NCBI GenBank assembly: GCA_019828595.1
Contig: JAHQRK010000007.1
Location: 992,001-1,056,000, forward strand
Source: Aphanomyces cochlioides
Taxonomy: Eukaryota; Oomycota; Saprolegniomycetes; Saprolegniales; Verrucalvaceae
Reading direction: 5' to 3'
Length of the DNA stretch: 64,000 bases
The notes under the pieces are model-generated. The model worked only from the letters and a program-made list of their open reading frames with translations. It made no database searches and was not told the DNA's origin. Both the position numbers and the translations under genes were made by a program. This document shows, piece after piece, positions 23,959-63,945 of this stretch. The stretch's first letter is position 1. Each line of letters opens with the position of its first letter.

Positions 23959-23960
23959 TA

Positions 23961-24620: not shown

Positions 24621-24622
24621 TA

Positions 24623-29231: not shown

Positions 29232-29364
29232 TAAAAATATTTTTCAAAATAGTTTAGTTTAAACAAGAACAAAATAATTTACCAAAATAGTTCTTCAATA
29301 AAATTGAAATGTATAGGATTATTAAACGAGATATTTTATACACAACGATGAGAGATTTAGATAA

Positions 29365-32701: not shown

Positions 32702-33427
32702 CGCAGTTTCGAATGCTGAAAGGGAATGCCATCCATCGTGTCCACCAATCAAAAGACAAACTTGCAACTGGTGATAAAATTACATGAAACTTACTTGGAA
32801 CTGATTGTGGCAAAATTTCACCGTTTACTTGGAACTGGCCCTAAACACTTTGCAAAGTGAAGGAATACTACAACCAAACATCATCGCCATATCAGTCCAT
32901 CGATTAGGATAGCTCAAACGTCGTAGAACAATCAAAAGCGCCTCATAAGTGCATATTTTGTCTCTGTCGCTGGTAACGAGTACATCAGGCAACCTCATTG
33001 ACAAAAGCATGCGCGAAATTCCTTGCTTAGAAAATCTAAACAAAGCTAGGCACGTCTGATCGCAAATGGAGTCCATACAGAATCTTTCATCCGGTATCAT
33101 GAGACGTTCTCTGAGGGACCGATCAAGGAGCAATAGCATTGCTTCATCGTCTCCATCCTCTGGAGCGAGAACCAGCAAGCGAGAATCCATGCCTATCAAC
33201 TCAAAATGAAATTTGAAACAAAACCTCTGAACCATTGATATTATACTATACTAGTAATAACATTCAAAGGCTTGATTTAAGTGCGAAATCGGTTTTTCAG
33301 CGGATTATAGATTTGTATTATATTATGCTTTACAGTATAATTAGACTTCATAAAACGAGCTGCGAAAACTCTATTATCAACCAATGGGATTATACTATGA
33401 AGACTCTGAGCGTGTCAAGCGAGTCGA

Positions 33428-33943
33428 TCAGTCGAGGGGCAGCGCGGGGAAGTCGATGCGAGGGCCGTAGCCATTGATGTGGTAGCTATACCCGAAGGGG
33501 CACTCGTCCTTGTAGTGGGAGCAAGACGGCTCGTTTGGCAAGTCTCCTGGCGTGATCCCCGAGCACGGAGCACCCATGTGCCCCCTCATGTCGCGATTGG
33601 CGTCGCGGTGGTCCAGGGGATATCTCTTCAGGTGCTGCGCTAACAGCTCGCTCAGCCGCATGACGCCCTGGGCAAGTTCGGTGTGGCTCTCCTGCAACCG
33701 GCGGATCTCTCGGTCCTTTTGCATGATTTGGCGCTGCAACTGACGAAAGATTTGAACGTGCTCAGCGAGCGTGTGGCTGAACGTGTCTTGTTGGTGATGG
33801 GCTTCCCGAATGCGCGCCTGCACCCCTGTTTTGTGGTCATACAGGTGGATGTGGAAGGTTTGAAGTGCCTGCCCCAGCTGTTGGTTGGCTGCGGCGATCA
33901 CCTGGTGCATCTGGTCTGTATTGTCTTGGTTGTTGAGAGCCAT
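33428..33943 (-). CDS. Antisense gene B in R1 (intact copy)
   Basis: 171 residues from MALNNQDNTDQMHQVIAAAN to DFPALPLD, uninterrupted. The N-terminal two thirds form a long coiled coil (HTLAEHVQIFRQLQRQIMQK, RLSELLAQHLKRY). The C-terminal part has a Cys/His cluster (RGHMGAPCSGIT, CSHYKDECPFGYSYH) that could bind a metal. It runs opposite to the retrotransposon, between pol and the 3' LTR. The R2 copy (59751-60259) has a 7-base deletion, but over 70 compared codons (33452-33661) 23 of 29 codon differences are synonymous in this frame. That argues it was translated. Confidence 0.7.
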   Translation of the reverse strand: MALNNQDNTDQMHQVIAAANQQLGQALQTFHIHLYDHKTGVQARIREAHHQQDTFSHTLAEHVQIFRQLQRQIMQKDREIRRLQESHTELAQGVMRLSELLAQHLKRYPLDHRDANRDMRGHMGAPCSGITPGDLPNEPSCSHYKDECPFGYSYHINGYGPRIDFPALPLD

Positions 33944-34030
33944 GGCCAGAAGAAGATGAGCGACAACGATGGCGAAAAGGAAATGAAGAAGAAGAAGATG
34001 TCGTGTTGCTCAAGAAATTGACTATGATGG

Positions 34031-34833
34031 CTATTCCGTTGGCTCGTCTGGTGAAGATTCGTTCTGTGAGGATGATGGACTGTCAGTTGGCTGGGCTGGA
34101 TGCATCCCAGAGCGACGATATGGACAGCGCGCCAAGGAGTTACGACACGGGTGACCCTTGTTTGTCAGCATGCCGCACAACTCGACGTCCGGACGGCGGC
34201 GTGGCGAGCATCCTTGCGATTGCACCGCAAGTCGAAGGTTGTCCAAGTCGGCTGCGAGCTTGACCACAGCTCGCCCATATTGAACCACGCTGTTTGCTAC
34301 ATGTCAACGGATGCCTTTTGTCGAGTGAGTCGGCTGTTGAGCTGCTCCGTGGCGGTGGTTTGTGTAGCTACTCGCTCATTCATCTCAATGATGGCCGCGT
34401 CCTGCTTGTCAATCCGAGCCAGAATGTGATTGATGTGGTTGACCTGGTTCTTCGGCTCCTCGATGGGGTCGCTGCTGAATGGCCCATGAGTGCTCGCATG
34501 AAACGGAGCCTCATCATCGGACTCGTTGTCCTGTGGCAGTGGAGAATGCTCCGGCGAGTTGACGGCATGGTCCCCCAGTTTGCCCGACACTAAGAAAATC
34601 CCGGGAAGCGGTGCTACCGACGAAACATCTTGTGGCGAACCTGGCCCTTGTAGCGACGAATCGGCCGGTGGTGGCGATGGTAGCGATTGACTCATTTTGT
34701 CTCGAATGATCTTGTCCTTGCGGCGCACGACTTGTGGCTTACGATTGGCGGTGAACGATCGCTTTGGCTCGAGATCTGAAGAGTCGCTTGACATATACGA
34801 GTGTGGGCGATGACTGTTGAAGCTGACCTCCAT
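34031..34833 (-). CDS. Antisense gene A in R1
   Basis: Two adjacent frames: 34300-34833 (MEVSFNSHRPHSYMSSDSSD ... IDKQDAAIIEMNERVATQ ... TRQKASVDM, stop) and 34031-34288 (VQYGRAVVKLAADLDNLRLA ... ELCGMLTNKGHPCRNSLARC). The helical character continues across the -1 frame change at about 34290. R2 has the same arrangement, so it is not a private mutation; recoding or an unrecognised intron is possible. The Ser/Pro-rich head precedes a coiled coil and a Cys-rich end (CGM...GHPC...ARCPYR). The start is taken at the last ATG before conserved sequence; the frame is open into the LTR. Confidence 0.55.
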
Positions 34834-34934
34834 ATCGAAAGCACTTGTGGACCAAGGGAGCGAAGCCCAGCGAGTGTCGCTCGTCGGTTGGCAGCCGTTT
34901 GTGCCCGTGGCGTCACGAGCTGCCAGGGGTGGTT

Positions 34935-35688
34935 TGTGGCAAAGCGAGCCGCCACTCGCGAAACCGATCCAACGCGTAGGTTGGCGCGAAGACGAAGAAC
35001 TATTGGCTGGAAGGTCGCCAATCCCGACGGACGGCGAGTGGATTTCGGTGCCTGATCGTGTGCGAATTATGGCCAAGGAGCGGGCGGCATGAATGGAAAA
35101 GCAGAGAACAGCGAGCCAGGGCAACGACTGTCAATAGAGGGAGCTGACCAAGCAGTCAGTCAGTGTTGGTAGCAGGGGACGGGCGTGCGACTGAAGTTTA
35201 TGGCCAATGAAGATGGCGAGCAAGACCTGAAGACCAATCAAGGGAGCAAGAGCGAGCGGATTAACACGCGTGCGTGCGAAGTTAGGAGTAGCTTAGGAAA
35301 CAGAGGCAGTAGTTAGACAGAGCTCTTTTTGGCTGGCGTTGAATGAACCTCTAAGTTTGTGGCGTCCCGTCGAGAGAGTTTTAGCGCCAAGAAGTTTGCA
35401 GGAGTTCCGTGGGTCTATCGAAAACCCGCACCGTCAATCGCCCTCACCAACGCCAGTCAACGCTAGGCGTAGCTCGTGGGCAACGGAGCAATCAATCCCC
35501 CTTCCGGTCCTCCCCACCGTCCTCTCCCCCAGCAGCGGTCGACTGCTGTGGACTTCAACCCACAGCCACGCCTCTCCATTTCCTTCGTTCGCGTCTGGTT
35601 CACCTAAAAGCCCCAGGCGACCTCTAACCTTCCACCCCCCTTTTCTTGCGGCGAGAAGCTCGGACTTCACTGATCCGACCATCCCATA
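34935..35688 (+). repeat. 3' LTR of R1
   Basis: Begins TGTGGCAAAGCGAGCC after a purine-rich tract (CCAGGGGTGGTT). Ends CCCATA, a C-to-T change from the expected CCCACA, followed by the CAAG duplication. Confidence 0.93.
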
Positions 35689-43530: not shown

Positions 43531-44163
43531 TTAAACGAGCTTCGTGGTTTCTGTGGCAGCCGCTGCATTTTCCTGTCGGACTTTGCTTACGTACCATTTC
43601 GTCCAAAATCCCAGAGTTGCAAACGTGATGATCATCAAGATGGGGCTAACGTAAACCACCATATCCACTGAGATGGAGTACACGAGATCGACACGGACGG
43701 CTACCTCTAGCAAAAGAGCAGAGCCCCATACACGGCAGACGAGTTGCGATCGACCACGCACATCAGGTTTAGCATACTTGGCATCAAGTTCGTCCTTCGC
43801 ATCAGGTCCTCGTAGTTGACGGTTTTATGACCAAATGAGATCTTCCATTGCGCAAATCGTCGAGCCCAAGAAGGTCGCTCCAATGATAAAAGTGAACGAG
43901 GAATCCTTGACCAGCAAGAGCTTTGGATCTTGAGTCAGGGTTGCAACTACAGCCGGCAAGGCGATCGACACCACCGTCAAGGAAGCTGTGATGTCGAGTT
44001 GGCGTTGACAGACCATCGTAATAATCGCATCAACCGCTGGTGGAATGCCTGAAAGAACGAGCGCCTCAACATGGGATGTGTATTGGGACGCGATGCTGTA
44101 AATGACGAGAGGCGCAACGACGTTGACAAGGAGAGTCTTTCGGATGGCATTTACTCGGCTCAT
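43531..44163 (-). pseudogene. VC0807-like membrane protein, member 1, nonsense mutation
   Basis: Reads MSRVNAIRKTLLVNVVAPLV and the family core (IYSIASQYTSHVEALVLSGI, VVATLTQDPKLLLVKDSSF). At 43825-43827 there is a TAA where the relatives have Tyr (WTYNRQL). After it the same frame continues (RQLRGPDAKDELDAKYAKP, VCRVWGSALLLEVAVRVDLV) to a normal end at 43531. One base change would explain the break. Five or six hydrophobic helices, about 210 residues. The core resembles the VC0807 family of small membrane proteins known mainly from bacteria and fungi; its biochemical role is unknown to me. Confidence 0.8.
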
Positions 44164-44625
44164 TTTTGCGTTGGAGTGGCAATTTGGAAAGTGGAAAAGT
44201 GGACAAGGGGTTGTCTGCTGGGGAAGGAATGAAAGTGAGTTTGCAGTTTTCCAAAGTAGTAGGTGGACGACATTCACTCGGTAGTCGTCAGAGAGTATGA
44301 CAACTGTAGTCAACATGGGAAATTTGGAATTTTTCGTCCAACAACAGTGAGACCAAGGTCGCTACTCTTCAGTCGTCAGCGCGGACTACAGTGTAGTCGT
44401 TTCGCTTCCTTAGGGGCAGTTCGGAGTAGAATTGGAAACATTCACCAAAAGGCGTGCGGAGTAGATGTCGTCTCGTGACCGTCTCCGAATCACATTGCGT
44501 TGATGTAGATGATTGGCCAAGAGTTTGGGGGCGGCATTTGTGTCTCCTGATATCTGCAACAACACTAGTGGTCACTATAATATATTGACCACATGATAGG
44601 TTTATATTTTGATATTATCAAAATA
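44164..44625. other. Intergenic, nothing recognised
   Basis: Upstream region of the first VC0807-like gene up to the MITE at 44629. No gene seen. Confidence 0.4.
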
Positions 44626-44628
44626 TAA

Positions 44629-45359
44629 GGGTGCGTCTGGCAAAATTTCAAAATCAATATGCCATTTTCAGCTAAATTGGGATCAACGATTTATGGCATA
44701 TTCAAAATACCGTATTTCCCGTAAGGTTGTCACCATAAATGATTTTCGAAAATGGTGACAAGTCCAAAGGAAATCAGATATCAAAACGAGGTACATTTGA
44801 TTGGGTAAAAATTAGACGTATTTACCAATCATATTATTATCATGAACACTTCGCAGTCGTATGTCGACTTTACGAGTGGCTGACTCCAGTTTGGGAGAAT
44901 GAAAACCTGCAACGCTCATTTGGGTCCAGGTTTGCCGACTGCAACGCATGAACACGACAAATTTATGGCCCTGGTATCTAATTGAGCCATTGCATTTCTT
45001 CCAATAAGATCTGACTGGTGACAACTCAAGGGGAACTCCGAAAAATTTCATCAGATTGTATTATAAATGTATACTATAAATTTGTATGAATCATTTAAAT
45101 AATTATATCAGTGGTGACAACTCAATGGGAAAAAATAGTGGTGACAACCTTACAGGAAATACGGTAGAGGTAAAACCTCCATCTCGTAAAATGGCATTTT
45201 GGGAGGCTCCAGTGAGTATATCCCAACCAAGAATAAAGGATTTGGTGCAAAACTCTTTGAGATAGACAAGTTCATATTTTGACCTAAATTATTGAATTTG
45301 GCCTCAAAATGGCATTTTGGACCTATTTATTGTAATATTTTCGGTTGCCAGACGGGCCC
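44629..45359. mobile_element. MITE copy 2 (TAA duplication) containing a nested element
   Basis: Same ends as the copy at 29365-29639, with TAA on both sides (44626-44628, 45360-45362). It is 731 bases because a 455-base element sits inside it. Without that, the copies align along their whole length with few differences. Confidence 0.88.
44710..45164. mobile_element. Nested TA-type MITE inside MITE copy 2
   Basis: Inverted ends CCGTATTTCCCGTAAGGTTG and complement of CCGTATTTCCTGTAAGGTTG, about 26 bases with one mismatch, flanked by TA (44708-44709, 45165-45166). The other MITE copy shows the empty site (CAAAATAGAGGTAAAACC). The interior has several GGTGACAAC repeats and only a short chance frame. 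A TA target suggests Tc1/mariner/pogo. Confidence 0.88.
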
Positions 45360-45412
45360 TAAACTATCATTTGGCAATTCACTCAACTCCACCCACCACT
45401 TCCGAACTCACG

Positions 45413-48219: not shown

Positions 48220-48879
48220 TTAGATGGTGCTGTAGTCACTTGTGAGGCTGCTCTTTCCTTGGAGAAAGGCCGACTTTTCAGAATTTGGTTCAGGCGCTGC
48301 ACCTGAAAACCACTGCGTCCAAATGACCAAACTCGTGAACGTCACGACCATCAGAAGTGGACTTGTGTACGCCACTGCATCCACGGACAGCGTGTAGATC
48401 ATCGTGATACGAATGGCTGCTTCAATCAGCAAGCCTCCTCCCCACACGCGGCAGACACGCTTTGAGTGAGCTTTCACTTCAGGCTTGGCGTACATCGCAT
48501 CCATTTCTTCCTTGGCTTCAGATCCACGATGTTGGCGCTTGTGGGTCCACATCATATCTTCCTTTCCCCAAAACGTGGAGGCCAAGAAGGTAGTTCCAAT
48601 GATGCACGTGAAGAATGAGTCCTTGACGAGTAGGAGCTTTGGATCTTGGGTTAGGCTAGCGATGAGAGCTGACAAGGATATCGACACGACCATCAAAGAT
48701 GGCACGACGTCGATACGACGGTGTCGAATCATGGAAACCATCGAATCGAACGCAGGAGGAATCCCAGAGAGCAGGAGTGCATTCGCCTTGGACGTTTGTT
48801 TCGATGCGATGTTGTAAATGACGATCGGTGAGACCACGCTGATGAAGATCGTCTTGCAGATTGCCTTCCGCTCGGCCAT
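48220..48879 (-). CDS. VC0807-like membrane protein, member 3 (only intact copy)
   Basis: 219 residues from MAERKAICKTIFISVVSPIV. Core: IYNIASKQTSKANALLLSGI, IDVVPSLMVVSISLSALIAS, LTQDPKLLLVKDSFFTCIIG, then a charged loop (KEDMMWTHKRQHRGSEAKEE), CRVWGGGLLIEAAIRITMIY and a last helix (YTSPLLMVVTFTSLVIWTQW). Five to six membrane helices are predicted with the charged loop in the middle. No break. The frame is open to 48999, but only this start matches its relatives. Function unknown; the family is conserved in bacteria and some eukaryotes. Confidence 0.8.
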   Translation of the reverse strand: MAERKAICKTIFISVVSPIVIYNIASKQTSKANALLLSGIPPAFDSMVSMIRHRRIDVVPSLMVVSISLSALIASLTQDPKLLLVKDSFFTCIIGTTFLASTFWGKEDMMWTHKRQHRGSEAKEEMDAMYAKPEVKAHSKRVCRVWGGGLLIEAAIRITMIYTLSVDAVAYTSPLLMVVTFTSLVIWTQWFSGAAPEPNSEKSAFLQGKSSLTSDYSTI

Positions 48880-49837: not shown

Positions 49838-50315
49838 TTAGAACACGACGGAGGCGAAAAAGGAGCTACAACGATGAGATACCTCCAGATTTGCAGGTTC
49901 TCGATAACTGGCAAGGGGGTGAAAAACTTCATTTAGAGTTATCACTAGTCTTCGTAACTCGGGATAGTGCCAACGACCTGAGCGGTTAGACGGCGGAACT
50001 TGAGCTTTTGGAGTAAGGTGGATTCGGGATTCTCGCATCATCGGAGGCTTGCGCAGTAGCTGGTTGTGGGTTTTTGCCGACGAACCACTTGTCCACAAAC
50101 CCAAGCAGCCAAACGACACTACAATCAAAATTGGACTCACGTACGCCATCGCATCCACCGGAATCGTATAAACTAGTACGATACGGACAGCTGCTTCAAA
50201 CAACAGACCTGTTCCCCACACACGACAGATGAAATGCGAGCGAGAGCGGACTTCCGGTTTGGCATAAGCTGCATCAAGGTCGGGCTTTGCGTCAGGTCCC
50301 CATAGTTGACGGTTG

Positions 50316-51069
50316 TGTGGCAAAGCGAGCCGCCACTCGCGAAACCGATCCAACGCGTAGGTTGACACAAAGAGCGATGATCTATTGGCTGAAAGGTCGC
50401 CAATCGCGACGGACTACGAGTGGATTGCAGTGCCGGATTGTCCAGGAATCATGACCAAGGAGCAAGCAGTACGAGTGGAAAAGCAGAGCCCAACAAGCCA
50501 GAGCAGTGGCCACCAATGGAGGGCGGCCAACCAGGCTTGCAGTCAGTGTGGTGGCCTGCTGCGAGTGTGCTGCCAAGACTTATGGCCAATTGAGTGAGTG
50601 AGTAAAGGTCAGAGACCAATCGTGGAGCGAGACGGAGACAATTACAGAGCGTGCGTGCGAAGTTAGGAGTAGCTTAGGAAACAGAGGCAGTAGTTAGACA
50701 GAGCTCTTTTTGGCTGGCGTTGAATGAATCTCTAAGTTTGTGGCGTCCCGTCGAGAGAGTTTAAGCGCCAAGAAGTTTGCAGGAGTTCCGTGGGTCTGTC
50801 GAAAACCCGCACCGTCAATCGCCCACCACCAACGCCAGTCAACGCTAGGCGTAGCTCGTGGGCAACCGAGCAACCAACCCCTTCCCGGTCCTCCCCACCG
50901 TCCTCTCCCCCAGCAGCGGTCAACTACTGCGGATTTTCAACCCACAGTCGGGCCTCTCCATTTCCTTCGATCGCGTCTGGCTCACCTAAAGCCCCAGGCG
51001 ACCTCTAACCTTTGACCCCCTTTTTCTTGCGGCGAGAAGCTCGGACTTCACTGATCCGACCATTCCACA
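50316..51069 (+). repeat. 5' LTR of R2
   Basis: TGTGGCAAAGCGAGCC ... ATTCCACA. Followed by AG and the primer-binding site TGGTGCCACGAACCGGGAG (51072-51090). Confidence 0.95.
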
Positions 51070-51071
51070 AG

Positions 51072-51090
51072 TGGTGCCACGAACCGGGAG
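51072..51090 (+). other. tRNA primer-binding site of R2
   Basis: TGGTGCCACGAACCGGGAG, two bases after the 5' LTR, same as in R1. Starts with TGG, as expected for pairing with a tRNA CCA end; the tRNA is not identified. Confidence 0.8.
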
Positions 51091-51111
51091 GTTGAGCACA
51101 CGAACGAAGAA

Positions 51112-52212
51112 ATGGTTAGACCTGTTAACCATGCCACCCTGCTGTCGGACGCGGCATCAGACAACCAGACGTCCACTTCGGTGGACATGCAATCGGACCC
51201 GTCGGAGCAAGCGAAGCAAGCGATGGCGGCATCCAGGAGTCGTTACGGGCAGACTCCAACTGCCTTCGGGCAATATCAATCAGTAGCGGCACCGACCCAC
51301 GCCACTTCGACCAACCTAGACGCGCGATCGCGCTCTAGCAAAAACAATCCCGTGGAATTCCAAAGCCACGGTAACGATGTTGGTGACTACGACGAAGACA
51401 TGGACGCCGATGAATCGCCTCCGGCTCCCGCCGACGACCAGTCAAGATTGATCGCGGTGTTGGTCAGGCAAAATCAAGATCTGATGCGGCAGCTGCAAAG
51501 CAACCAAACCTCCGCGCAAGTGCAGGAAGACGAGGACGATCTTGACGAGTGGAACATGGACGCTGCGCCTGTCGGGCTCCCTTTCAACAATGCTCCCCGT
51601 CTGCATATCCTCGCGCTCGAGCCGCTGCAGCGATTCAACGGATCCGCTGACGGCACCGATGCGGCGTCAAGTTTCTTCCGACGATTCGAGGAGAATGCGA
51701 CCGCCAGCGGATGGACTGACGACGAGGCAAAACGCAAGTTCCGCCTGACTGTCGGCCGAGTCGTCCAAGACTGGTACAACCAGCTGCGAGCTGACGAACG
51801 ATCCACTTGGAAGGCCGTGCGTGCGAGCTTCGTCCGCGAGTACATCCTCAGTCCGGTGCCCAAGCAGGAGGTCTACTACACGATGCGTCAGAAGGAGAAT
51901 GAGACTATCCGCGAGTACCTCTTCCGCTTCAACGCGGCTGCCACGAAGATCGGTCTCAAGTACGATACCAATCGGAAGCACTTTGTCGACCACTTACGGT
52001 GCTTTTGCCACTCGCTGGCGGATCCGAGCCAAGCCAAGTGGATCTCTTCGATGCACTTCACCTCGATGGACGACTTGAAGGAGTACTTGAATGACCAGCG
52101 CCACACTGAAGCATTGCGAGAGCATCGCAGCCAACGAGGAACGGCCCAACCGAGCGGCAACCAGCGACAAGAACGTGCAAAGGTTCCGCGTGTCAACCAC
52201 TTGACGCTGTGA
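51112..52212 (+). CDS. R2 Gag (matrix/capsid part)
   Basis: 366 residues from MVRPVNHATLLSDAASDNQT. A disordered acidic N-terminal region is followed by the retrotransposon capsid domain: LQRFNGSADGTDAASSFFRR, ASGWTDDEAKRKFRLTVGRV, VQDWYNQLRADERSTWKAVR, then a basic linker (REHRSQRGTAQPSGNQRQER). It ends at TGA 52210. The nucleocapsid follows in the -1 frame. There is no slippery heptamer here, so the break is probably a one-base indel in this copy; R1 lacks the region and cannot settle it. Confidence 0.85.
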   Translation: MVRPVNHATLLSDAASDNQTSTSVDMQSDPSEQAKQAMAASRSRYGQTPTAFGQYQSVAAPTHATSTNLDARSRSSKNNPVEFQSHGNDVGDYDEDMDADESPPAPADDQSRLIAVLVRQNQDLMRQLQSNQTSAQVQEDEDDLDEWNMDAAPVGLPFNNAPRLHILALEPLQRFNGSADGTDAASSFFRRFEENATASGWTDDEAKRKFRLTVGRVVQDWYNQLRADERSTWKAVRASFVREYILSPVPKQEVYYTMRQKENETIREYLFRFNAAATKIGLKYDTNRKHFVDHLRCFCHSLADPSQAKWISSMHFTSMDDLKEYLNDQRHTEALREHRSQRGTAQPSGNQRQERAKVPRVNHLTL

Positions 52213-52556
52213 CCCCAACGGACATGGCCAAGCTGGCGGCGGCAGCGACCGACTCTGTGCGCGCTGAGATCTTCGCTCTTGGACTCAACAATCATGAGGC
52301 GCGTCGCGAGGTCTGTCGCGACTGTGGCAAGACGCACTTCAAGTTGGATGGCTTGTGCTGGTCGAAGGTCTTCTGCACTCTCTGCCAACGCATGGGGCAC
52401 CCGGAGATCAACTGCTTCAAGGCTTGTCAACTCTGTGCGACACCGCACCACAAAGCCGATCCGTGCCCGACTCGTCAACAAGCTGCCGAGCTGAAGGAGT
52501 TCCTGCAAAGGCTGGACATCCCCGACATGCCCAGCCTGGATTGTTTAAACTTGTAA
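52213..52556 (+). CDS. R2 Gag nucleocapsid, three zinc knuckles
   Basis: Frame -1 relative to the capsid. Knuckles: CRDCGKTHFKLDGLC (C-x2-C-x3-H-x5-C variant), CTLCQRMGHPEINC (classic C-x2-C-x4-H-x4-C) and CQLCATPHHKADPC. The frame ends at TAA 52554-52556, two codons after the slippery heptamer TTTAAAC. Confidence 0.8.
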
Positions 52557-52580
52557 GTCCGTGGGGACCGCGATACCCCA
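52544..52580 (+). promoter_or_regulatory. Putative -1 programmed frameshift site between gag and pol
   Basis: In the gag frame the codons are TGT TTA AAC TTG TAA, so the heptamer T TTA AAC is in the correct X XXY YYZ phase. A shift of -1 enters the pol frame (CTT GTA AGT CCG). The 11 bases after it are followed by a stem TGGGG (52562-52566) / CCCCA (52576-52580). The loop and the sequence downstream both contain CGCG, so a pseudoknot is conceivable. Confidence 0.75.
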
Positions 52581-55500
52581 GCCGCGACGGACGTCGGACA
52601 TCGCACACTGACTCAAAAAACCAAGAAAAACTGAAAAATGACGAAAACCCAAAAACATTGAAAACCCAAGAAAAATCCATAAAAATAGCCCCCACCAGAA
52701 CCTTACTGACGGAGTTCGAAGAGCTTTTTGAGGTGGTTCGTGGATGGAAGAGGAAGCGACAAGAGCGAGCGGTTACGGCAAGCGTTGAAGAAGCAATCAA
52801 GAATGAAGACAGAATCAAAAGTCGACGCGACGCCAATGCCGCCAACCATGTTGGTTTCCTGAAAGTTCCCCCAGTAACCAAGAATACATCCAACCTTATT
52901 GACAAACCTTTTGTTTTCTACTCGGCTGTCGACTGCGTGGCGCTGTCAGACGAGTACGGGCTCAAGGAAGGCGAACACTTTGGTCACTGGCAAGATACAA
53001 CGTTCATCGAGAACGACATGACCCGCCAAGCATTCCTAAATGCGCAAATCATGGACCAAGCAGTGGTGGTCCTGGTAGATACTGGTGCCAACATGAGTAT
53101 CATCCACCCCATGGTCGTCAAGAAACTCGGCCTGAAAGTGGACACAACGAAGACGACTGATATAGCTGGCCTTGGAGGAGCCGCCGTTGTGAACACTCAA
53201 GGCATCGTAGACATCAAGTTGACCATTGGTCGCGGACTAGTTTACGTTTTCCCCATCGCTGTCTGCGACTTTGGGGACACTGGCTTCGACGCCATCCTTG
53301 GGATGGACTTCCTGTTCCGCGCTGTCGTCATGGTGGATGCGAGTCGTCGCGAACTGAACCTACCTGAAGGCAAGTACGTCGAACTACACGACCAGCCGGT
53401 CTGCTACAGTCGTGGCTACATGAATTACGTGCGCCTGAACCGCGATGCGAGCATCCCGCCCGGTGGATCAATCGTTGTGCCTTTACCCAAGCTGCGAGAA
53501 GGAATGCCAGAGACACTGGAATACTGGGTTCATCGCGATGTGCGCTGGATTACCACTGCGTTAGACGCCGACGACAAACCAGCAGCCTACAAGGTCACAA
53601 ACGTCAGCGAACGCAACGTGTTTCTGTCTGCCAACACTGTTGTCGGGGCAATCTCAGCCCAAGGCGAGCGACCGCTTAGCCGGCTGATGGTGCGTACGAG
53701 TAGTTTGAGATACCAAGCGTGGAAAACGGAAGCGTGGGAAGGGAGTTACCCCGATGACCACCGAGCGAGACTGGAAGAAGCTGCGGCTGAGTTAGCTGAC
53801 GACAACAGCTGGAGGGAACCGCGACCCCCGTCACCCAGACACTTGCTCACTGCTGACGGGAAACTGCGTACAACCTGCGAGAGCGACGGTGACTACGGCG
53901 TGGATGACGAACGGCCCCCTATTACACAATCGGTGGACGACCATGAAGCGCCGCTGGATCCGGTGGAAGCCGCCGAGCCAAGGATGCATGCTGTCTTCTG
54001 CTACCATGCCTGCCACTTTCGGGACACGCTGCCTCCACCATCAATCTTCCTGATGGACACGATGCCCGACAACCTGGATCAGCGGCGGATGGCTAAAGAA
54101 GTAATGCTGCGCGAAGGAATCGATTTGTCAACTGAAGAATTGGAGCAGCAGCTAGCCATAATCCCTGAAGTGCTTCGCGAGGTAGAGCCGTTCGACCCTG
54201 ATCAACTGGACGTCGGCGAGGATGAATTGAGCGATGAAGAAAAAGAGAAAATGAGAGTCGTCCTCCGCAAGCACCGAAAGTTCTTTATCAAGTCGGGCAA
54301 CAGCCTGCCGCCGCCTGCTAAGGGAGCTGTCTGCGACATTGATGTCGGTGAAGCAAAGCCACTAGCTGAACGAGCAAGACGCATCCGCCCAGAGCTGTTG
54401 AAGAAGCTGTTTGACCTCCTGCGAGGATTGTTGGACTTTGGGCTGATCACCTTTTCGAATTCGCCTTGGGCCTCCCCGATCGTGCTGGTCCTCAAGAAGG
54501 GTGGCAAAGATATCCGCCTTTGTATCGACTACCGGGGAATCAACGAGCTCCAAGAACTCATGCGGTCACCGATGCCGACGCTGGACGGAATGCTAGCCAA
54601 CTTCCACACGATGCAGTGGTTCTTGTCACTCGACAACGCATCCGGGTTTTGGGTCGTACGTGCAACCAAGCGGGCGCGCAAGGTCAGTGCCTTCATCTGC
54701 GCGTTGGGCCACTTCGAATGGACGCGAATGGCGCAAGGGCTCAAGAATGCGCCGATGATATACCAGCGGATGATTACGAACGCGTTGTTTGGCTTTGTGG
54801 ACATGCCACCAGGGGTGACCGATGATGATGCTGATGGCGAGCCAGTGGATATGTTCGCTTTGGGATTTAAATGCGACTTATCGCAGCTTCCACCGCCGGC
54901 CAACCGCACATCGTTCGCCGACGACATAAGCGACGGCGCCGATTCGTGGGATGGAATCGTAGAGCTGACCGATCGTATCCTCGCACGCTTGACCTATTTC
55001 GGCGTGAGCATCTCGGCCCTGAAGAGCAAGTTTGGCAAATTCGCAACCGATTTCCTTGGCCGCGTTGTATCTCGCAGAGGATTGGAAGCAAGGCCACGGA
55101 GTCTCGATACTGTCCTAGCTGCGCCATTCCCGAAGTGCCTCAGTGACATGCAATCGTTCCTGGGCTCGCTGAATTTTTATAGCCGATTTATCGAAAATTA
55201 CTCGATTTTGGCGAGCTGTCTGTACGAGATCTCAGACGAAGAACTACGCCTTGGCTTGGTGTCGCCCGCTGCCGTTTGTGCGTTCGCTGACCTGAAGGCC
55301 GCCTACTCGTCGACACCGCTCCTGCGTCATGCCGATCCTGGCCGAGAGTTCCACATCCTATTGTACACGACAACTTGGGCGATTTCGGCGACAGTCTGTC
55401 AGGACTATGATGGAGGGCTGCATCCTGTGAGGTTCTGTGGTCGGACTCTGAAGGGCGGCGAGCCGCGTTACGAGGAGTGGGCTAAGGAGGCTCTTGCTCT

Positions 55501-55951
55501 GCTGCGTGCCGTCAAGGTTTGCTACTATGAGTTGCGCAACATGCAGTTGGTGGTGTACAGTCGCCATGGCCTCTTGAAGTGGATCCTGGCCGACAAGCAT
55601 GGCAAAGCCGATCATCTGCCGTGGGCTGCAATCTTGTCGCCGTGGACGATTCGCGTGGAACAAGTGGTCGAGTTGGACGAACGATGGGCCCTGCCGATTC
55701 GCTTGATGGACATCCTGCACCCCCCAGACGCGTCAACCTTGGCTGATATGGACGTGTACAAACCCAACAAAGCCAAGGACGTGCAGGTCTCTCAGAGGCA
55801 AGCCGCTCTGCCCCAATTCGACCCCGACGAACGGACTGTGGTGGTCGCCTTTGACGGCGCTATCAAAGTGAAGGAGAAACTTGGCAGCTTCGGCTTTGTG
55901 ATCTGGCAGCTGCCTGGTTGGAGTGTGCTGTGGGTAGGGTGTCCTCGCTGA
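52551..55951 (+). CDS. R2 Pol part 1: protease, RT, first and partial second RNase H
   Basis: Entered by -1 shift (LVSPWGPRYPSRDGRR). Protease: VVVLVDTGANMSII. RT: SPIVLVLKKGGKDIRLCIDY, WFLSLDNASGFWV, HFEWTRMAQGLKNAP, and the box SFADDIS (F-A-D-D). Connection/first RNase H: EFHILLYTTTWAISATVCQD and RTLKGGEPRYEEWAKEAL; the usual TDAS is TTT, so the first catalytic Asp is missing. Second RNase H begins VVAFDGAIKVKEKLGSFGFV, then an indel leads to a stop at 55951. R1 shows the undamaged version. Two RNase H domains are known in plant Tat and some oomycete Ty3/Gypsy elements. Confidence 0.88.
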
Positions 55952-56006
55952 TGCGAACGGTTAACCTTGCAGAGTACAGTGGACTGATTGTGGCCTTGGA
56001 CGTGCC

Positions 56007-58046
56007 TTGAGTCTAAGCCTGGCAAATCCAATGATTTTCGGTGACTCGCGCTTGGTTATCCACCAAGTACTGGGGTGGATGCAGAGCAAACAGTCCCATC
56101 TACAGAGCTGCCTTGATCGGGTCCGTGTGCTGAAGGACCAAGCGACTGGGGTGGAATTTCACCATGTGAAGCGGGAATGGAACGGCGCCGCTGATCTGCT
56201 GGCTGGGCTCGCGCTGCAAGACCGCGCTGGAGGGCAAGTGCTGGATGAATCGGTCCTGGAAGAGCTACAGCGACACAACCTGTTACCAGAGCTTCTGCAT
56301 CCCGCCGCTGCCGCTGCAACCCCGATGATTATGGCGTTCCAAGCGAGGTCGACGGAGAAAATGGCCGCACTGAGGCTGGATCGAGTGAGCAAGGCACAAG
56401 ATCGAGAAAGAGAATTGGCGAATATTAAGTGCTATTTGCGGGGTGAGGTCAGCCACCTGACTGAGACGGAGTGTCGCCTATTGCCCAAGTTGGCCGGTCA
56501 GTTCGAAATCGGCGAGCGAGGGGCTCTATACCGTGTCGAGTGGTCGTCGAAGAGATCGCCAGAAGAGCGCATGCAATGGAAGCTGGTGATCCCGCGAGTC
56601 CTGGTCAAGGTGGTGCTGGCTCATTGTCATGACGACGCTCAGGGTGGACACGCAAAGTTCCAACGGACGTACGAGCGCGCAAGAGCCCACTTCTATTGGA
56701 GACTAATATACGCCGATACGAAGGACTACGTCGTCGACTGTGCCGTTTGCAAAACGGCTGGACCACCGCCGAACTTCCGAGCTCTGAGCCCTGGGAACCT
56801 CACCCCGGAAGGGCCGCTAGATGTGGTGTGCATGGATGCCGCAACCGACATGCCGTTGTCGTTCAGAGGGAACACCCAGTTGATTGTCTTCGCCGACGTG
56901 TTCACGGGTTTCATCATGACCAAGGCGACACCGAATCGAACGGCTCACATAGTCGCTCTCGCCTTCGAGGAAGTTGTTTCCCGCCGCTTTGGAGCCTGCC
57001 TCGAACTGCGCCATGACCGCGACCCCTCCTTCATGTCGAACGTGTTCAAGTATTTCTGTGAGATGTTGGGGCAGCGGCAGATGCCGACCTTTGCATACCG
57101 TCCGCAGGCGAATGGCCTTATCGAGCGATCGATCCAAGTGATGACCCCTGCCGTGAAGCACTATGTTCAGGATCCGAAGCAAAGAGACTGGGACGACTGG
57201 GCTGAGAGACTGGTGTTCGCGATGAACACGTCCGTGTCGGTCGTGCGCAAGGAGACTCCGTTCTTTCTCATGCACGGATGGGACCCGCACACTACGATCA
57301 CTGCGAGCCTGCCGACAGTTCGCGGGGATGCTGAGCCGGAAGCCTATCGCTGGCGATTGCAAGTCCACCAGCAACAAGTGTATTGCCATGCTCTGAACCG
57401 AGACTTAGTGGCTGCCGCCATCGCTAACCGTGCGCGTCGCCACAACGAGCAATTGCCTGAAAATGTTGACGAGCGCATCAAAGTGGGTGATGCAGTGTGG
57501 CTGTACATCGACCAGGTCAAGCCCGGCGTGAAAGTCAAGTTAGCTCACAGCTGGCATGGCCCTTTCCGCGTGTTGTCGCGTCCCAATGATTACTCAAGCG
57601 AACTGGAGTCTCGTGTGCGTCACACGGGGAAGGTCTATCGGTTCCACGCAGTTGTGCACGACTCTCGGAAGAAGCCGCGACGGGTTTACTTAGAGCGGCC
57701 AGTGGAATTGTTGCAAAGCGTGCCGGAAATTGACTTTGACGAAGAACTAGCTTTACCCGACGACTCGTTTCTTGGTGGACGACCCGACCGCGACGATGTA
57801 CTGGGCTCGCGCCCGCAAGTTGTGGCTGTGCGAAACGTGCGATACACAGAAGGCACGAAGGAGTATGAAGTTCAATTTTACCGGGGTGGACCGTGGATAT
57901 GGGAAGCGCTCGTCAACATCCCGCCGTCTGAGCTGATTTACGAATTTGAGCGAGTGCGCCTCGGGTTTGATCGGCTTGCGATGATGGGCCAGGAAGAGCT
58001 CCACCCGATCGAAGAGGAGGAGACAAAGGACGACGATCAAGCGTAA
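56007..58046 (+). CDS. R2 Pol part 2: end of second RNase H, integrase, chromodomain-like end
   Basis: 679 residues in the next frame. FGDSRLVIHQVLGWMQSKQS and HHVKREWNGAADLLAGLAL end the second RNase H. Integrase: zinc region with HDDAQGGHAKFQ ... YVVDCAVCKTA; DDE core VVCMDAATDMP, LRHDRDPSFMS, PQANGLIERS. The C-terminal part includes VYRFHAVVHDSRKKPRRVYL and PQVVAVRNVRYTEGTKEYEV then WIWEALVNIPPSEL, which looks like a diverged chromodomain that may guide integration. Ends DDDQA. Separated from part 1 only by small indels. Confidence 0.88.
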   Translation: MSLSLANPMIFGDSRLVIHQVLGWMQSKQSHLQSCLDRVRVLKDQATGVEFHHVKREWNGAADLLAGLALQDRAGGQVLDESVLEELQRHNLLPELLHPAAAAATPMIMAFQARSTEKMAALRLDRVSKAQDRERELANIKCYLRGEVSHLTETECRLLPKLAGQFEIGERGALYRVEWSSKRSPEERMQWKLVIPRVLVKVVLAHCHDDAQGGHAKFQRTYERARAHFYWRLIYADTKDYVVDCAVCKTAGPPPNFRALSPGNLTPEGPLDVVCMDAATDMPLSFRGNTQLIVFADVFTGFIMTKATPNRTAHIVALAFEEVVSRRFGACLELRHDRDPSFMSNVFKYFCEMLGQRQMPTFAYRPQANGLIERSIQVMTPAVKHYVQDPKQRDWDDWAERLVFAMNTSVSVVRKETPFFLMHGWDPHTTITASLPTVRGDAEPEAYRWRLQVHQQQVYCHALNRDLVAAAIANRARRHNEQLPENVDERIKVGDAVWLYIDQVKPGVKVKLAHSWHGPFRVLSRPNDYSSELESRVRHTGKVYRFHAVVHDSRKKPRRVYLERPVELLQSVPEIDFDEELALPDDSFLGGRPDRDDVLGSRPQVVAVRNVRYTEGTKEYEVQFYRGGPWIWEALVNIPPSELIYEFERVRLGFDRLAMMGQEELHPIEEEETKDDDQA

Positions 58047-58390
58047 ATCCCAGCCCAACGGTACTTGAAATGGATCGCGATATCCCGAGTTCCGGTTCGG
58101 AGGCCCCCGACATTGACATTTATCCCGGTTCTGTAGCGCTTTACTTGGTTGAGATTACTTTGGTATGGTTGGCTTTGTGAGGTGCAGGTGGATCGAATGG
58201 CCCGATTGTTGGTGATGGAATGGAAATTGATTGATTTTGTGATGGGAACGTGCGTATTATGCATTTGATTACATGTGATTTATGAAGAAAATTGGACGAA
58301 CAAGATGGTGGGGCATTAATCATTACGCTATGCTACAACGAAAAGCTCCATTCCTAGTTCGATGGCCCCGAACTTGGTCGTTGGTTCAAG

Positions 58391-59616
58391 CTAGATGATA
58401 CGTGGTTTCTTCTTGTCGGGGCCCGTGAACTCCTGCTTGTAAGATCGGTATTCGCATAGGAAAAAGCGTCGAGCTTCGACTCCTTTTGGGCGAGTGGAAA
58501 ACTCACGGCGATACAATTTGCCTGGAGGTGGTTGCGGCGCCCACTGACGATGTTGGGAACATTGCTTGATTGGGGCCTTGCAGCGAGCCATATGCTTCGT
58601 CGTAATCCAGCGACATTGCTCCCCGTGGTCGCCAAGTCTACGTTCCATGCAATCCGCCAGAGGTAGAGCGCAGTGCTGGTCTTCCTTCCCAGGGTAGCGG
58701 TGGTCACACAGCTTCTCGTCCATGGCTTGGCGGTAGCGCTGAGCTTCTGCTGATGTTTTGTCCTCGTACACCCAATACGACTTTGTCGCGGCTCCCGGGT
58801 TCTCCACTATCTCGTAGTCGGAGTCGTCAGAGTTGTCTACCACGGGAGATGCGGGGGCCGCAAAGAGATCATTGTCCTGGTCAGCCGGCGGTGTGGCTGC
58901 CCCGTCAGAATCGATCGTCACAGACTCCCGAATGGCTTCGCGCATTCGCGCGACAGGTGAACTTGGTGGCGTGTCTATGGGTGGACCGAGGTCAACACCC
59001 GCGCTGGAGAGATCCTGGCCACTGGCAGGCGCGACAACGATGCTTGATAAGGCCTCAGACCCCTTCGCCTCCGACAAGGCCTTCAGCTACACGAATTGCT
59101 TCAACAATGGCGAGTGGATGTTAGTACCTGAGCCTCCAACGCGTCGACTTGCCGCCCCTGCGCCTCAATGCGGCTCTCCTGTAGTTGAATGAGATTCGCT
59201 TGGATCCCCACTTGCTCCTCAAGAACGCTGATTCGCTGCGTCGCTTGCGCTGTAGCCAGAACGCTGGCCGCGAGTTGGTGACTGTTCCTGAGCAGCAAAG
59301 AATGGGCGATGGAGATGAATTCTTGGCGTGTCTTCGAATCGTGAATCCATCCTCGAGCGTCACGTCTGATCAGCTGCCGGGAGTTGGCGAGCGTATCAAC
59401 AGTTGCGTGCGCAAGTGAAGGGAGGTCGGCTAACGGAGAGGCGGCACCAGGAAAGACCCCTTGGAGGCGCAGAGCGTGGTTTCCGAGCTCGGTGGTGAGC
59501 TCGGACGCGGCTATACTCAAAGTGGCTTGGAAGGACGACATGACGGCTGGCTGAGGTGCGAGCTGGTTAGATTGTGAGCCCGATGGCTTGGCTCCGTCTG
59601 AGTCCTTTGACGGCAT
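58391..59616 (-). CDS. R2 antisense gene C, spliced
   Basis: Exons are the complement of 59128-59616 and 58391-59086, with a 41-nt GTACTAAC...GTGTAG intron also present in R1. 394 residues from MPSKDSDGAKPSGSQSNQLA. The N-terminal half is helical (ATLSIAASELTTELGNHALR, VLEEQVGIQANLIQLQESRI). The middle is acidic (DNSDDSDYEIVENPGAATKS). The C-terminal part is Cys/His-rich: KLCDHRYPGKEDQHC, LADCMERRLGDHGEQC, RWITTKHMARCKAPIKQCSQ H. It runs opposite to pol. Function unknown; the Cys/His spacing suggests zinc binding and a nucleic-acid or protein partner. Confidence 0.7.
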
Positions 59617-59750
59617 CGGTCAGTTGATTAGCGAGGACGGTGCACAGAATCCGCGAACAAACTGACTCATGAAATCGATCAACAAACGCTCCTGAATTAT
59701 CGGCCAATGGGATTATACTACGAAGATTCTAAACGTGCCAAGCGAGCCGA

Positions 59751-60259
59751 TCAGTCGAGGGGCAGCGCGGGGAAGTCAATGCGAGGACCATGGCCGTCGA
59801 TGTGATAGCTGTATCCGAAGGGGCACTCGTCCTTGTAATGGGAGCACGATGGCGTGTTAGGCAAATCTCCTGGCGTAATCCCCAAACATGGTGCGCCCAT
59901 GTGCCCCCTCATGTCACGATTGGCATCGCGATGGTCCAGGGGATATTGCTTCAAGTGCTGTGCCAGCAACTCATTCAGTCGCACTGGGCGAGCTCGGTAT
60001 GACGTTCTTGCAGTTGGCGGATTTCACGGTCCTTCAGCGCGATCTGGTGCCGCAACTGACGGAACAGTTGAGCGTGTTCGGCGATTGTGTGGCTGAATGT
60101 GTTTTGCTGGTGGTGAGCTTCCCGAATGCGCGTTTGCACCTCGGTTTTGTGGTCGTCCAGGTGAGTGTGAAAGGTTCGAAGCGCCTGTCCCAGCTGCTGG
60201 TTGGCCGCTGCGATCACTTGGTGCATCCGATCAGTGTTGTTTTGGTTGTTGAGAGCCAT
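59751..60259 (-). pseudogene. R2 antisense gene B, 7-base deletion
   Basis: Same protein as R1 33428-33943: MALNNQNNTDRMHQVIAAAN ... coiled coil, then RGHMGAPCLGITPGDLPNTP, CSHYKDECPFGYSYH. A 7-base deletion near 59983 shifts the frame in the middle. Before and after it the codons match R1 with mostly synonymous changes, so it was coding until recently. Confidence 0.7.
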
Positions 60260-60348
60260 GGCCAGAAGAAGATGAGCGACAACAATGGTGAAAAGGGAAA
60301 TGAAGAAGAAAGAAGATGTCGTGTTGCTCAGAGAATTGACTATGATGG

Positions 60349-61151
60349 CTATTCCGTTGGCTCGTCTGGTGAAGATTCGTTCTGTGAGGATGATGGACTG
60401 TCAGTTGGCTGGGCCGGATGCATCCCAGAGCGACGATATGGACAGCGCGCCAAGGAGTTGCGACAAGGATAGCCTTTGTTTGTTAACATGCCGCACAGTT
60501 CGACGTCTGGACGACGGCGTGGCGAGCGCCCCTGCGATTGCACCGCAAGTCGAAGGTTGTCCAAGTCGGCTGCGAGCTTGACCACAGCTCGCCCATATTG
60601 AACCACACTGTTTGCTACATGTCAACGGATGCCTTTTGTCGAGTGAGTCGGCTGTTGAGCTGCTCCGCGGCGGTGGTTTGTGTAGCTACTCGCTCATTCA
60701 TCTCAATGATGGCCGCGTCCTGCTTGTCAATCCGTGCCAGAATGTGATTGATGTGGTTGACCTGGTTTTTGAGCTCCTCGATGGGGTCGCTGCTGAACGG
60801 CCCAGGAGTGCTCGCATCAAACGGAGCCTCATCATCGGACTCGTTGTCCTGTGGCAGTGGAGAATCCTCCGGCGAGTTGACGGCATGGTCCCCCAGTTTG
60901 CCCGACACTAAGAAAATCCCGGGAAGCGGTGCTACCGACGAAACATCTTGTGGCGAACCTGGCCCTTGTAGCGACGAATCGGCCGGTGGTGGCGATGGTA
61001 GCGATTGACTCATTTTGTCTCGAATGATCTTGTCCTTGCGGCGCACGACTTGTGGCTTACGATTGGCGGTGAACGATCGCTTTGGCTCGAGATCCGAAGA
61101 GTCGCTTGACAGATACGAGTGTGGGCGATGACTGTTGAAGCTGACCTCCAT
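60349..61151 (-). CDS. R2 antisense gene A
   Basis: Two frames as in R1: 60618-61151 (MEVSFNSHRPHSYLSSDSSD ... NHILARIDKQDAAIIEMNER) and 60349-60606 (VQYGRAVVKLAADLDNLRLA ... CGMLTNKGYPCRNSLARCPY). The frame change at about 60610 is shared with R1. The first frame is open into the LTR, so the transcript probably starts there. The C-terminal knuckle C-x8-C-x6-C resembles those in genes B and C. Confidence 0.55.
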
Positions 61152-61252
61152 TTCAAAAGCACTTGTGGACCAAGGGAGCGAAGCCCAGCGAGTGTCGCTC
61201 GTCGGTTGGCAGCCGTTTGTGCCCGTGGCGTCACGAGCTGCCAGGGGTGGTT

Positions 61253-62006
61253 TGTGGCAAAGCGAGCCGCCACTCGCGAAACCGATCCAACGCGTAGGTT
61301 GACACAAAGAGCGATGATCTATTGGCTGAAAGGTCGCCAATCGCGACGGACTACGAGTGGATTGCAGTGCCGGATTGTCCAGGAATCATGACCAAGGAGC
61401 AAGCAGTACGAGTGGAAAAGCAGAGCCCAACAAGCCAGAGCAGTGGCCACAAATGGAGGGCGGCCAACCAGGCTTGCAGTCAGTGTGGTGGCCTGCTGCG
61501 AGTGTGCTGCCAAGACTTATGGCCAATTGAGTGAGTGAGTAAAGGTCAGAGACCAATCGTGGAGCGAGACGGAGACAATTACAGAGCGTGCGTGCGAAGT
61601 TAGGAGTAGCTTAGGAAACAGAGGCAGTAGTTAGACAGAGCTCTTTTTGGCTGGCGTTGAATGAATCTCTAAGTTTGTGGCGTCCCGTCGAGAGAGTTTA
61701 AGCGCCAAGAAGTTTGCAGGAGTTCCGTGGGTCTGTCGAAAACCCGCACTGTCAATCGCCCACCACCAACGCCAGTCAACGCTAGGCGTAGCTCGTGGGC
61801 AACCGAGCAACCAACCCCTTCCCGGTCCTCCCCACCGTCCTCTCCCCCACCAGCGGTCAACTACTGCGGATTTTCAACCCACAGTCGGGCCTCTCCATTT
61901 CCTTCGATCGCGTCTGGCTCACCTAAAGCCCCAGGCGACCTCTAACCTTTGACCCCCTTTTTCTTGCGGCGAGAAGCTCGGACTTCACTGATCCGACCAT
62001 CCCACA
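61253..62006 (+). repeat. 3' LTR of R2
   Basis: Preceded by the purine-rich tract CCAGGGGTGGTT. Ends ATCCCACA, then the GTTG duplication. Confidence 0.95.
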
Positions 62007-62348
62007 GTTGTAAGTCCACATGAGATCTTCCTTGGCGTACACTGTCGACAACCAAAACGTCGTTCCAATGATGAGAGTTAACATGGAGTCTTTGACAAGC
62101 AAGAGCTTTGGGTCATGGGTCAAGGTGGCAATGACAGCAGAGAGAGCGATCGAAACCACCGTCAAGGAAGACAAAATATCGATGCGGCGGTCTCGGACCA
62201 TCGTGTAGACAGCATCAGTTGCTGGTGGAATCCCCGAGAGGACGAGCGCGACGACTTGAGTGGTGCGTTTGGACGCAATGTGGTAGATAATGAGCGGCAG
62301 GACGACGTTGACGATGACGATCTTTTTGATGAGATTGGATTTGTTCAT

Positions 62349-63269: not shown

Positions 63270-63945
63270 TTAATTGCTAATGCTTCTGTACGTGGAGCGC
63301 CTAGACGACGGAACTTGAGCTCTTGGAGTAAGGTGGATTTGCGAGTTTAACCTCTTCTTTGCTTGTTGTTGGCTTTTGCCGACATACCATTTCGTCCACA
63401 AGCCCAGACAACCAAATGCTACAATCATCAAGATTGGACTCACATAAGCCATTGCATCCACTGAGATCGTGTACACGAGAGCCACACGGATGGCTGCTTC
63501 CAACAACAGACCCGATCCCCACACACGACAGATGAAATGCGAGCGAGAGCGGACTTCCGGCTTGGCATAAGCAGCGTCAAGTTCTGCCTTGGCATCGGGT
63601 CCTCGAAGTTGACGATTGTACGTCCAAATGAGATTCTCCTTCCCACACACTGTCGACAGCCAAAACGTCGCTCCTGATGAGGGTAAACATGGAGTCTTTG
63701 ACGAGCAAGAGTTTTGGGTCGTGGGTCAAGGTGGCAATGACAGCAGAGAGAGCGATTGAAACCACCGTCAAGGAGGACAAAATATCGATGCGGCGATCTC
63801 TGACCATTGTATAGAGGGCGTCTGCAGCGGGCGGAATCCCCGACAGGACAAGCGCGACAACTTGAGAGGTGTGTTTTGACGCGATGTTGTAAATGATAAG
63901 CGGGAGGACGACATTGATGAGGACGATCACGTTCGACTTGCTCAT
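63270..63945 (-). pseudogene. VC0807-like membrane protein, member 5, 2-base deletion
   Basis: Starts MSKSNVIVLINVVLPLIIYN, closely like member 4 (IPPAADALYTMVRDRRIDIL, ATLTHDPKLLLVKDSMFTLI). At about 63676 two bases are missing relative to member 4 (TCCTGATGAG against TCCAATGATGAG on the plus strand), shifting the frame. The second frame continues ATFWLSTVCGKENLIWTYNR ... CRVWGSGLLLEAAIRVALVY to a stop at 63270. It shows the unbroken WTYNRQLRGPDAK loop that R2 interrupts in member 4. Confidence 0.85.

Follow-up and report, generated by a model that had tools for sequence, protein, structure and literature searches.

The window analysed here is a stretch of 64,000 nucleotides of the Aphanomyces cochlioides genome. 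The part that concerns us, positions 58391-61151 on the minus strand, lies between pol and the 3' long terminal repeat (LTR) of R2, an 11.7-kb Ty3/Gypsy retrotransposon. R2 occupies 50316-62006; self-comparison and the LTR ends show that its two LTRs are 99.5% identical and that it is flanked by the target-site duplication (TSD) GTTG. The window holds a second element, R1 (21944-35688; LTRs at 21944-22696 and 34935-35688, 98.4% identical; TSD CAAG), and the two are members of a single element family. Three genes lie on the minus strand in the interval from the end of pol at 58046 to the 3' LTR at 61253, with A on the LTR side, then B, and C on the pol side. The limits given for this group in an earlier sequence-only reading of the DNA are exact, 61151 being the first base of the gene A start codon and 58391 the last base of the gene C stop codon. 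That reading had three antisense units in both elements, and all of them are indeed present, but not all are intact: A is frameshifted in R1 and R2, a 7-nt gap shifts the frame of B in R2, and C of R1 is broken. Gene B of R1 is fully open, as had been reported. Our comparison of the copies in the genome shows, at the level of sequence, that A, B and C are real coding genes under purifying selection and in a fixed antisense orientation. Most copies, and also the diverged family L061, retain the frames and start codons of the three genes and the intron of gene C.

The genome searched comprises 76.2 Mb in 94 contigs, with the window at 992001-1056000 of contig C67, and yielded 74 matches to gene A, 52 to gene B and 48 to exon 2 of gene C, with fragments and distant rows counted in. 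Near-identical duplicates and two badly aligned rows (L009 for A, L024 for exon 1 of C) were dropped, leaving 24 of 31 aligned rows for A, 25 of 31 for B, 26 of 33 for C exon 1 and 26 of 32 for C exon 2. In these distinct copies the pooled Nei-Gojobori ratio of nonsynonymous to synonymous change (dN/dS) in the antisense frames was 0.22 and 0.10 for the two parts in which gene A was counted (A1 and A2, the 50 nt between them being excluded), 0.13 for gene B, and 0.21 and 0.30 for exons 1 and 2 of gene C. For comparison, the C-terminus of pol gave 0.12 in 23 copies. The values of 0.10-0.30 are not near 1 and bear out the suggestion, made from R1 and R2, that the antisense proteins are under purifying selection. 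The other two antisense frames had dN/dS values of 1.04-3.05 and stops in all copies. Two of the sense frames had values of 0.80-2.99 and stops in every copy, with two exceptions, one that runs over the end of A (dN/dS 2.99, 2 of 24 copies with stops) and one over B (dN/dS 1.03, 16 of 25 copies with stops).

It might be argued that these are chance antisense frames, or the shadow of a sense gene, because one sense frame, the third, shares its third positions with the antisense frame and mirrors its low dN/dS (0.15-0.41). That mirroring frame, however, has stops in most copies of every piece except A2: 24 of 24 for A1, 10 of 24 for A2, 25 of 25 for B and 26 of 26 for each exon of C. The proteins of the antisense frames are, moreover, conserved across species and families. 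The antisense dN/dS values and the frame stops, together with the distant families, refute the chance or shadow explanation, to which we attach next to no probability. The same relationship between frames is seen when R1 and R2 are compared over a part of gene B for which 29 differing codons, 23 of them synonymous, had been counted. The 23 stand, but the differing codons number 30. In the three sense frames the synonymous codons of the same stretch are 4 of 30, 20 of 32 and 4 of 34, and the frame with 20 of 32 is that which shares its third codon positions with the antisense frame. Gene B differs by 17% between R1 and R2 and the R2 LTRs are 99.5% identical, so most of these differences predate the insertion of R2.

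An intact start codon is found in 22 of 24 copies of A, 22 of 25 of B and 26 of 26 of C, and stops or frame-breaking gaps are absent from 15 and 18 of the 24 copies of the two A parts, from 18 of 25 copies of B and from 15 and 13 of the 26 copies of the two C exons. The strength of constraint depends on how far apart the copies are. For A and B together the 6 pairs with a proportion of synonymous differences (pS) below 0.05 had a dN/dS of 0.43, and the 138 pairs at pS 0.3-0.5 one of 0.14; the corresponding values for C were 0.73 in its 5 closest pairs and 0.21 in 54 pairs at pS 0.3-0.5. This is the pattern expected when inserted copies decay and constraint acts along the copying lineage, which needs the proteins. 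These findings support, as far as sequence comparison goes, the central claim of the sequence-only reading, namely that an oomycete Ty3/Gypsy element with a second ribonuclease H (RNase H) carries selected antisense proteins.

Gene C is apparently spliced at a 41-nt intron with GT-AG ends, which the earlier reading had noted in both elements and which the alignment of copies confirms. Its length is unchanged in all 28 aligned rows, which include three near-identical duplicates; the AG is kept in 28 of 28 and the GT in 26, having been lost in L011 and L045. Unlike the intron, the spacer between C and pol carries indels in 23 of 24 copies. In L061 a 41-nt GT-AG intron is found at the same codon junction of gene C, and seven of the eight Aphanomyces euteiches models of gene C examined (P0001-P0007) run continuously across that junction. 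The eighth, P0009, joins portions of genes B and C in a single model, which is either a prediction artefact or a hint of alternative splicing between antisense genes. Frameshifting in place of splicing is ruled out for R2, where the two gene C frames do not overlap (59101 and 59086), so that frameshifting alone cannot join them. In L061 the two frames overlap by 19 nt and frameshifting may operate instead of splicing. An antisense intron would be able to outlast retrotransposition because the genomic RNA comes from the other strand. Exon 2 encodes an acidic Ser/Pro-rich linker followed by a basic C-terminal domain with two Cys/His motifs.

Gene A appears in R1 and R2 with a 1-nt frameshift that is common to the two and missing from the other 22 aligned copies; its coding sequence of about 267 codons is, therefore, unbroken. 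The alternative of a 50-nt intron was considered and ruled out by the shared frameshift in the alignment of copies and by L061. Gene A is continuous in L061 and in A. euteiches P0016 and P0017. The features of the two elements are listed in Table 1.

Table 1. Features of elements R2 and R1 in the window, and of the related families L062 and L063
Feature	Position	Strand	Basis or remark
R2 5' LTR, 754 bp, TG...CA	50316-51069	+	TSD GTTG at 50312-50315; self-comparison
tRNA primer-binding-site-like stretch after R2 5' LTR	from about 51072	+	read by eye
gag frame, stop to stop, start inside LTR	51055-52212	+	Retrotrans_gag PF03732, E 3.6e-6
pol frame 1 between stops, encoding protease, reverse transcriptase and the first RNase H	52298-55951	+	Pfam
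pol frame 2 between stops, encoding the second RNase H and the zinc and core domains of integrase	55965-58046	+	Pfam
Gene C exon 2	58391-59086	-	open in R2
Gene C putative intron, 41 nt, GT...TAG	59087-59127	-	alignment of copies
Gene C exon 1, ATG at 59616, helical/coiled-coil part	59128-59616	-	helices predicted, modest confidence
B-C spacer, candidate promoter or 5' untranslated region of gene C	59617-59750	-	mean divergence 0.072
Gene B, ATG at 60259, 171-aa predicted coiled coil with Cys3His tail (open copies)	59751-60259	-	
Gene A, starting with the ATG at 61151; about 267 aa where open	60349-61151	-	frameshifted in R1 and R2
R2 3' LTR	61253-62006	+	TSD GTTG at 62007-62010; self-comparison
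Gene C of R1	26977-28198	-	broken: 4-nt gap in exon 1, stop in exon 2
Gene B of R1	33428-33943	-	fully open
Gene A of R1	34031-34833	-	same frameshift as R2
Long antisense protein, about 700 residues, in place of B and C	L062:1996-4116; L063:1345-3399		

The products of A, B and C are predicted coiled coils with a C-terminal Cys3His motif. The gene A protein has a basic, Ser-rich N-terminus, a helix of 83 residues and a Cys3His tail; a structural model of A. euteiches P0016 built with six sequences has a disordered N-terminus, a helix at residues 121-203 and a loose tail, and the mean predicted local distance difference test (pLDDT) score of blocks over residues 121-200 is 85-97. The gene C model (P0002) is helical, with modest confidence, up to residue 148 and has no modelled structure beyond it. 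Among 2000 shuffles of each protein, 0 (A), 4 (B) and 19 (C) reached the heptad patterning of the real sequence. The motif C-x(9-14)-C-x6-C-x(2-7)-H is present in all three proteins, twice in C, and in a looser form it recurs in those diverged relatives of A, B and C that were examined; the long protein of L063, described below, has it once. The strict pattern appeared in 0, 1, 0 and 11 of 5000 shuffled proteins. A basic stretch in A (residues 24-39) and a KKK near the end of C could serve nuclear entry. Matches to Spc29, PUMA_CC, DUF1664 and other coiled-coil families fell below the Pfam cut-offs and were not used, and two PHROG matches of gene B (E 0.00026 and 0.0031) were taken as coiled-coil noise.

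At least 85 merged integrase places were obtained from 98 scored among 623 candidates in the genome, and an antisense A or C gene lies within 12 kb downstream at 70 of these 85, with none on the same strand (0 of 85). When the places are sorted by integrase identity, antisense A or C accompanies all 33 close relatives, all 5 places at 70-81% and 32 of the 46 at 51-64%, but not the single one at 42%. In L061, whose integrase is 76% identical, antisense A, B and C occur in the same order with identities of 44, 22 and 30%, the value for B covering the part after an in-frame stop. In L062 and L063 (integrase 59 and 53% identical) there is an antisense A together with one long antisense frame that replaces B and C; counted between stops it spans 771 or 694 codons, its end resembles the Cys/His stretch of C, and it has no match in Pfam. 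Five near-identical copies of one element, L002-L006 (on contigs C31, C32, C48, C53 and C73, of 39 to 436 kb), are probably one locus assembled repeatedly or a recent segment duplication.

The proteins are also found in A. euteiches, at 82-84% identity for gene A (full-length matches), 71-80% for gene B (171-aa matches) and 52-68% for gene C; the search with gene C scored the 7997 candidates sharing most words. Among 23 rows of protein-database matches the 22 with a species are all from Aphanomyces (21 from A. euteiches and one from A. cochlioides), and none has a precomputed Pfam domain. The A. cochlioides protein, P0022, is gene A of an element family on contig C5, and the match without a named source, P0019, is the window's own gene.

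We regard it as very improbable that A, B and C are host genes, captured as passengers and selected for the benefit of the host. An intron in one of the genes fits the capture of genomic DNA, and of the 145 places with an A or C gene (compiled by hand from the searches, fragment rows of the same place being excluded) 24 have no recognised opposite-strand integrase within 12 kb and may include stand-alone copies. However, the gene lies opposite a recognised integrase at the other 121, and the protein matches, which come from Aphanomyces only and include no Pfam domain, offer no host counterpart in searches that were not aimed at a stand-alone host gene. Selection also decays in young copies, as the higher dN/dS of the closest pairs shows, which argues against a benefit to the host.

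The arrangement of the module suggests how it might be expressed. Some 100 bp separate the start of gene A from the LTR. A transcript of this gene would therefore begin in the 3' LTR or just inside it, and antisense transcripts may come from the R2 3' LTR. Conservation of the B-C spacer is unusually high: it has indels in 3 of 24 copies, and its mean divergence (Table 1) compares with 0.126 in the intron, 0.161 in the C-pol spacer and 0.288 in the LTR stretch 61253-61550. Initiator (Inr)-like sites, identified by match to a consensus, lie 43-44 nt upstream of the B start codon in 22 of 24 copies and at -30 of gene A in 7 of 24; for gene C no such site common to at least 3 of 25 copies was found. 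Internal promoters for the antisense genes are thus possible, but the conserved B-C spacer could also serve the sense RNA.

Antisense genes in this place are described in the plant elements Grande, RIRE2, Retand and PvRetro13 and in the fungal element Boty (PMC7264820). The plant hallmark domain TRP28 is reported from 97% of Retand clusters, with a proposed regulatory role (PMC11963269), and is predicted to bind DNA (PMC11963269, PMC7264820); the protein of Grande gene23 is described as nuclear and its gene as having its own promoter (PMC11963269, PMC7264820). Tat elements possess a dual RNase H (PMC5348765, PMC10508981). The A. cochlioides element is likewise a Ty3/Gypsy element with antisense genes between pol and the 3' LTR, and the second RNase H noted in the sequence-only reading is confirmed, RVT_3 (E 5.2e-9) being found besides RT_RNaseH (E 1.9e-13). 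It differs from plant Tat and Retand in its oomycete host and in having three separate conserved genes, one of them with an intron, whose products belong to no known protein family. The proposed parallel with plant Tat-type elements is a fair one as regards architecture, but TRP28 (PF04195) was not listed for A, B or C in Pfam searches at E up to 1 and then up to 5, the latter giving the best 25 of 41 families for P0012. Since TRP28 was not found, the resemblance looks like convergence. By analogy, the module presumably works in the same sense as the known antisense genes.

HBZ of human T-cell leukaemia virus type 1 (HTLV-1) is a spliced gene whose product is a coiled-coil protein of the basic leucine zipper (bZIP) type. 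It too is an antisense gene expressed from the side of the 3' LTR and has a role in the life cycle of the virus (PMC10186651); it differs from the present case in belonging to a retrovirus and in being one gene. The bZIP family was not listed for A, B or C in the Pfam searches, and A shows a long helix only. Boty/BcGypsy1 of Botrytis carries the antisense gene brtn (PMC7264820, PMC8365987) and is thus another Gypsy element of a filamentous plant pathogen with an extra antisense gene, although, by the published descriptions, it has one named gene against three here. Ustyantsev and others described the oomycete dual-RNase H Gypsy groups Archon and Chronos, the former from Saprolegniales, where the same paper places Aphanomyces (PMC5348765). 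Both groups have an aRNH beside the Gypsy RNase H, and a chromodomain downstream of the integrase distinguishes Chronos from Archon, which lacks it. R2 is like them in its oomycete host and in having RT_RNaseH followed by RVT_3, as typed by Pfam; the terms 'antisense' and 'additional ORF' (open reading frame) are not present in the main text on those groups (PMC5348765). An envelope-like third gene, in sense orientation after pol, was not encountered, all three genes being antisense. The sequence-only reading knew of no description of such proteins, and antisense genes in oomycete LTR retrotransposons are likewise not described among the open-licence literature matches listed. What appears to be new here is a multi-gene, apparently spliced module in an oomycete that encodes new proteins; antisense placement as such was already known in plants and fungi.

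These observations suggest a model, to which we give even chances, in which the antisense module belongs to the retrotransposon as an accessory, is expressed, and supplies nuclear proteins that bind nucleic acid or chromatin and tune the life cycle of the element. A, B and C would be transcribed from the 3' LTR end, and perhaps also from internal promoters, and the gene C transcript would be spliced at the 41-nt intron. The products would be oligomeric coiled-coil proteins with a metal-binding Cys3His tail, and by analogy a nuclear role in nucleic acid or chromatin binding seems most likely for them. They might restrain or time sense transcription, or shield the element from silencing, in the manner of HBZ or of the proposal made for plant Retand.

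Several observations weigh against this model. The splicing and the promoters of the module are read from sequence. In all five pieces frame-breaking gaps are more numerous than in-frame ones, with totals of 38 and 13, as is expected where many copies decay. No A or C gene was found at 15 of the 85 integrase places, where the module may be dispensable or lost, or may have diverged past detection, and gene B of L061 has its in-frame stop. Structure prediction and profile searching, the checks that had been proposed for these proteins, gave a helix in A and weak helices in C but no Pfam family above cut-off for A, B or C; the gene C model is poor (mean pLDDT 43.7), a PDB sequence search with A returned only coiled coils at E 0.29 and above, and one with C returned no match. 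The nuclear and regulatory role thus rests on composition and analogy. The hhalign probability is 67.5% for A with C (E 5e-5), 20.5% for A with B and 0.2% for B with C, which is weak evidence that the motifs of A and C share an origin, weaker still for A and B, and none for B and C.

Two other functions can be imagined for a module that is maintained by the element. The proteins may be structural partners of the particle or of integration, such as a second Gag-like protein or a targeting factor, and not regulators of transcription. Coiled coils with a Cys/His tail would suit a multimeric protein that packages nucleic acid, and all three genes are conserved; but the element has a gag of its own (Retrotrans_gag), a CCHC-like zinc knuckle is readable by eye in the frame that follows it (52110-52556), and the Cys3His motif is no CCHC knuckle, so that we think this function unlikely. 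VANC proteins of the Arabidopsis VANDAL transposons have an anti-silencing function, and the module may similarly counter RNA- or chromatin-based silencing of the element by the host. Such a role fits selfish selection at the level of the lineage, and it fits the turnover of the module between families, elements of the L062 and L063 type having a different, two-gene version. We nevertheless hold it to be rather improbable as the specific function, no known protein family having been recognised in A, B or C by Pfam.

The accessory module that we favour may be older than the R1/R2 family. A plausible proposal, which we rate at somewhat below even chances, is that a whole clade of oomycete dual-RNase H Gypsy elements carries an ancestral antisense set of two or three coiled-coil Cys3His proteins, possibly derived from one ancestor by duplication and forming one complex, and expressed with splicing. 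This set would be a multi-gene regulatory system of a retrotransposon that arose separately from those of Retand, brtn and HBZ. The present elements would add to plant Tat a second, seemingly independent instance in which Gypsy elements with a dual RNase H bear antisense genes. The function of antisense genes in LTR retrotransposons is unsettled, and three defined proteins make the question testable here, with selection measured on three antisense genes in 24-26 copies each and with a conserved intron. The relatives now labelled in databases as hypothetical or unnamed Aphanomyces proteins could be relabelled.

The sense strand of R2 has the domains of a Ty3/Gypsy element. Pol frame 1 matches, over 52700-55948, RVT_1 (E 4.1e-14) and Asp_protease_2 (E 5.4e-11) besides RT_RNaseH, and pol frame 2 matches Integrase_H2C2 (E 1.3e-13) and, just under its Pfam cut-off, rve (E 4e-7) besides RVT_3. 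By eye, the C-terminus of pol after the integrase, 57765-58043, resembles a chromodomain. L061 and L062 retain it; it has no match in Pfam (R2, L061 and L062) or in a PDB sequence search (R2). Genes B and C of R1 are parted by about 5 kb of inserted DNA, 28282-33372, in which a 411-codon plus-strand frame (30533-31768) appears by eye to encode a DDE-type, Harbinger-like transposase; two stretches of the insert recur at 44625-44709 and 45165-45367. When joined, the flanks of R2 (50100-50315 and 62011-62220) form an uninterrupted match of 415 bp to 63403-63815 (84.6%). R2 was thus inserted inside a member of a local repeat family, of which further relatives lie at 43634-44019 and 48338-48732.

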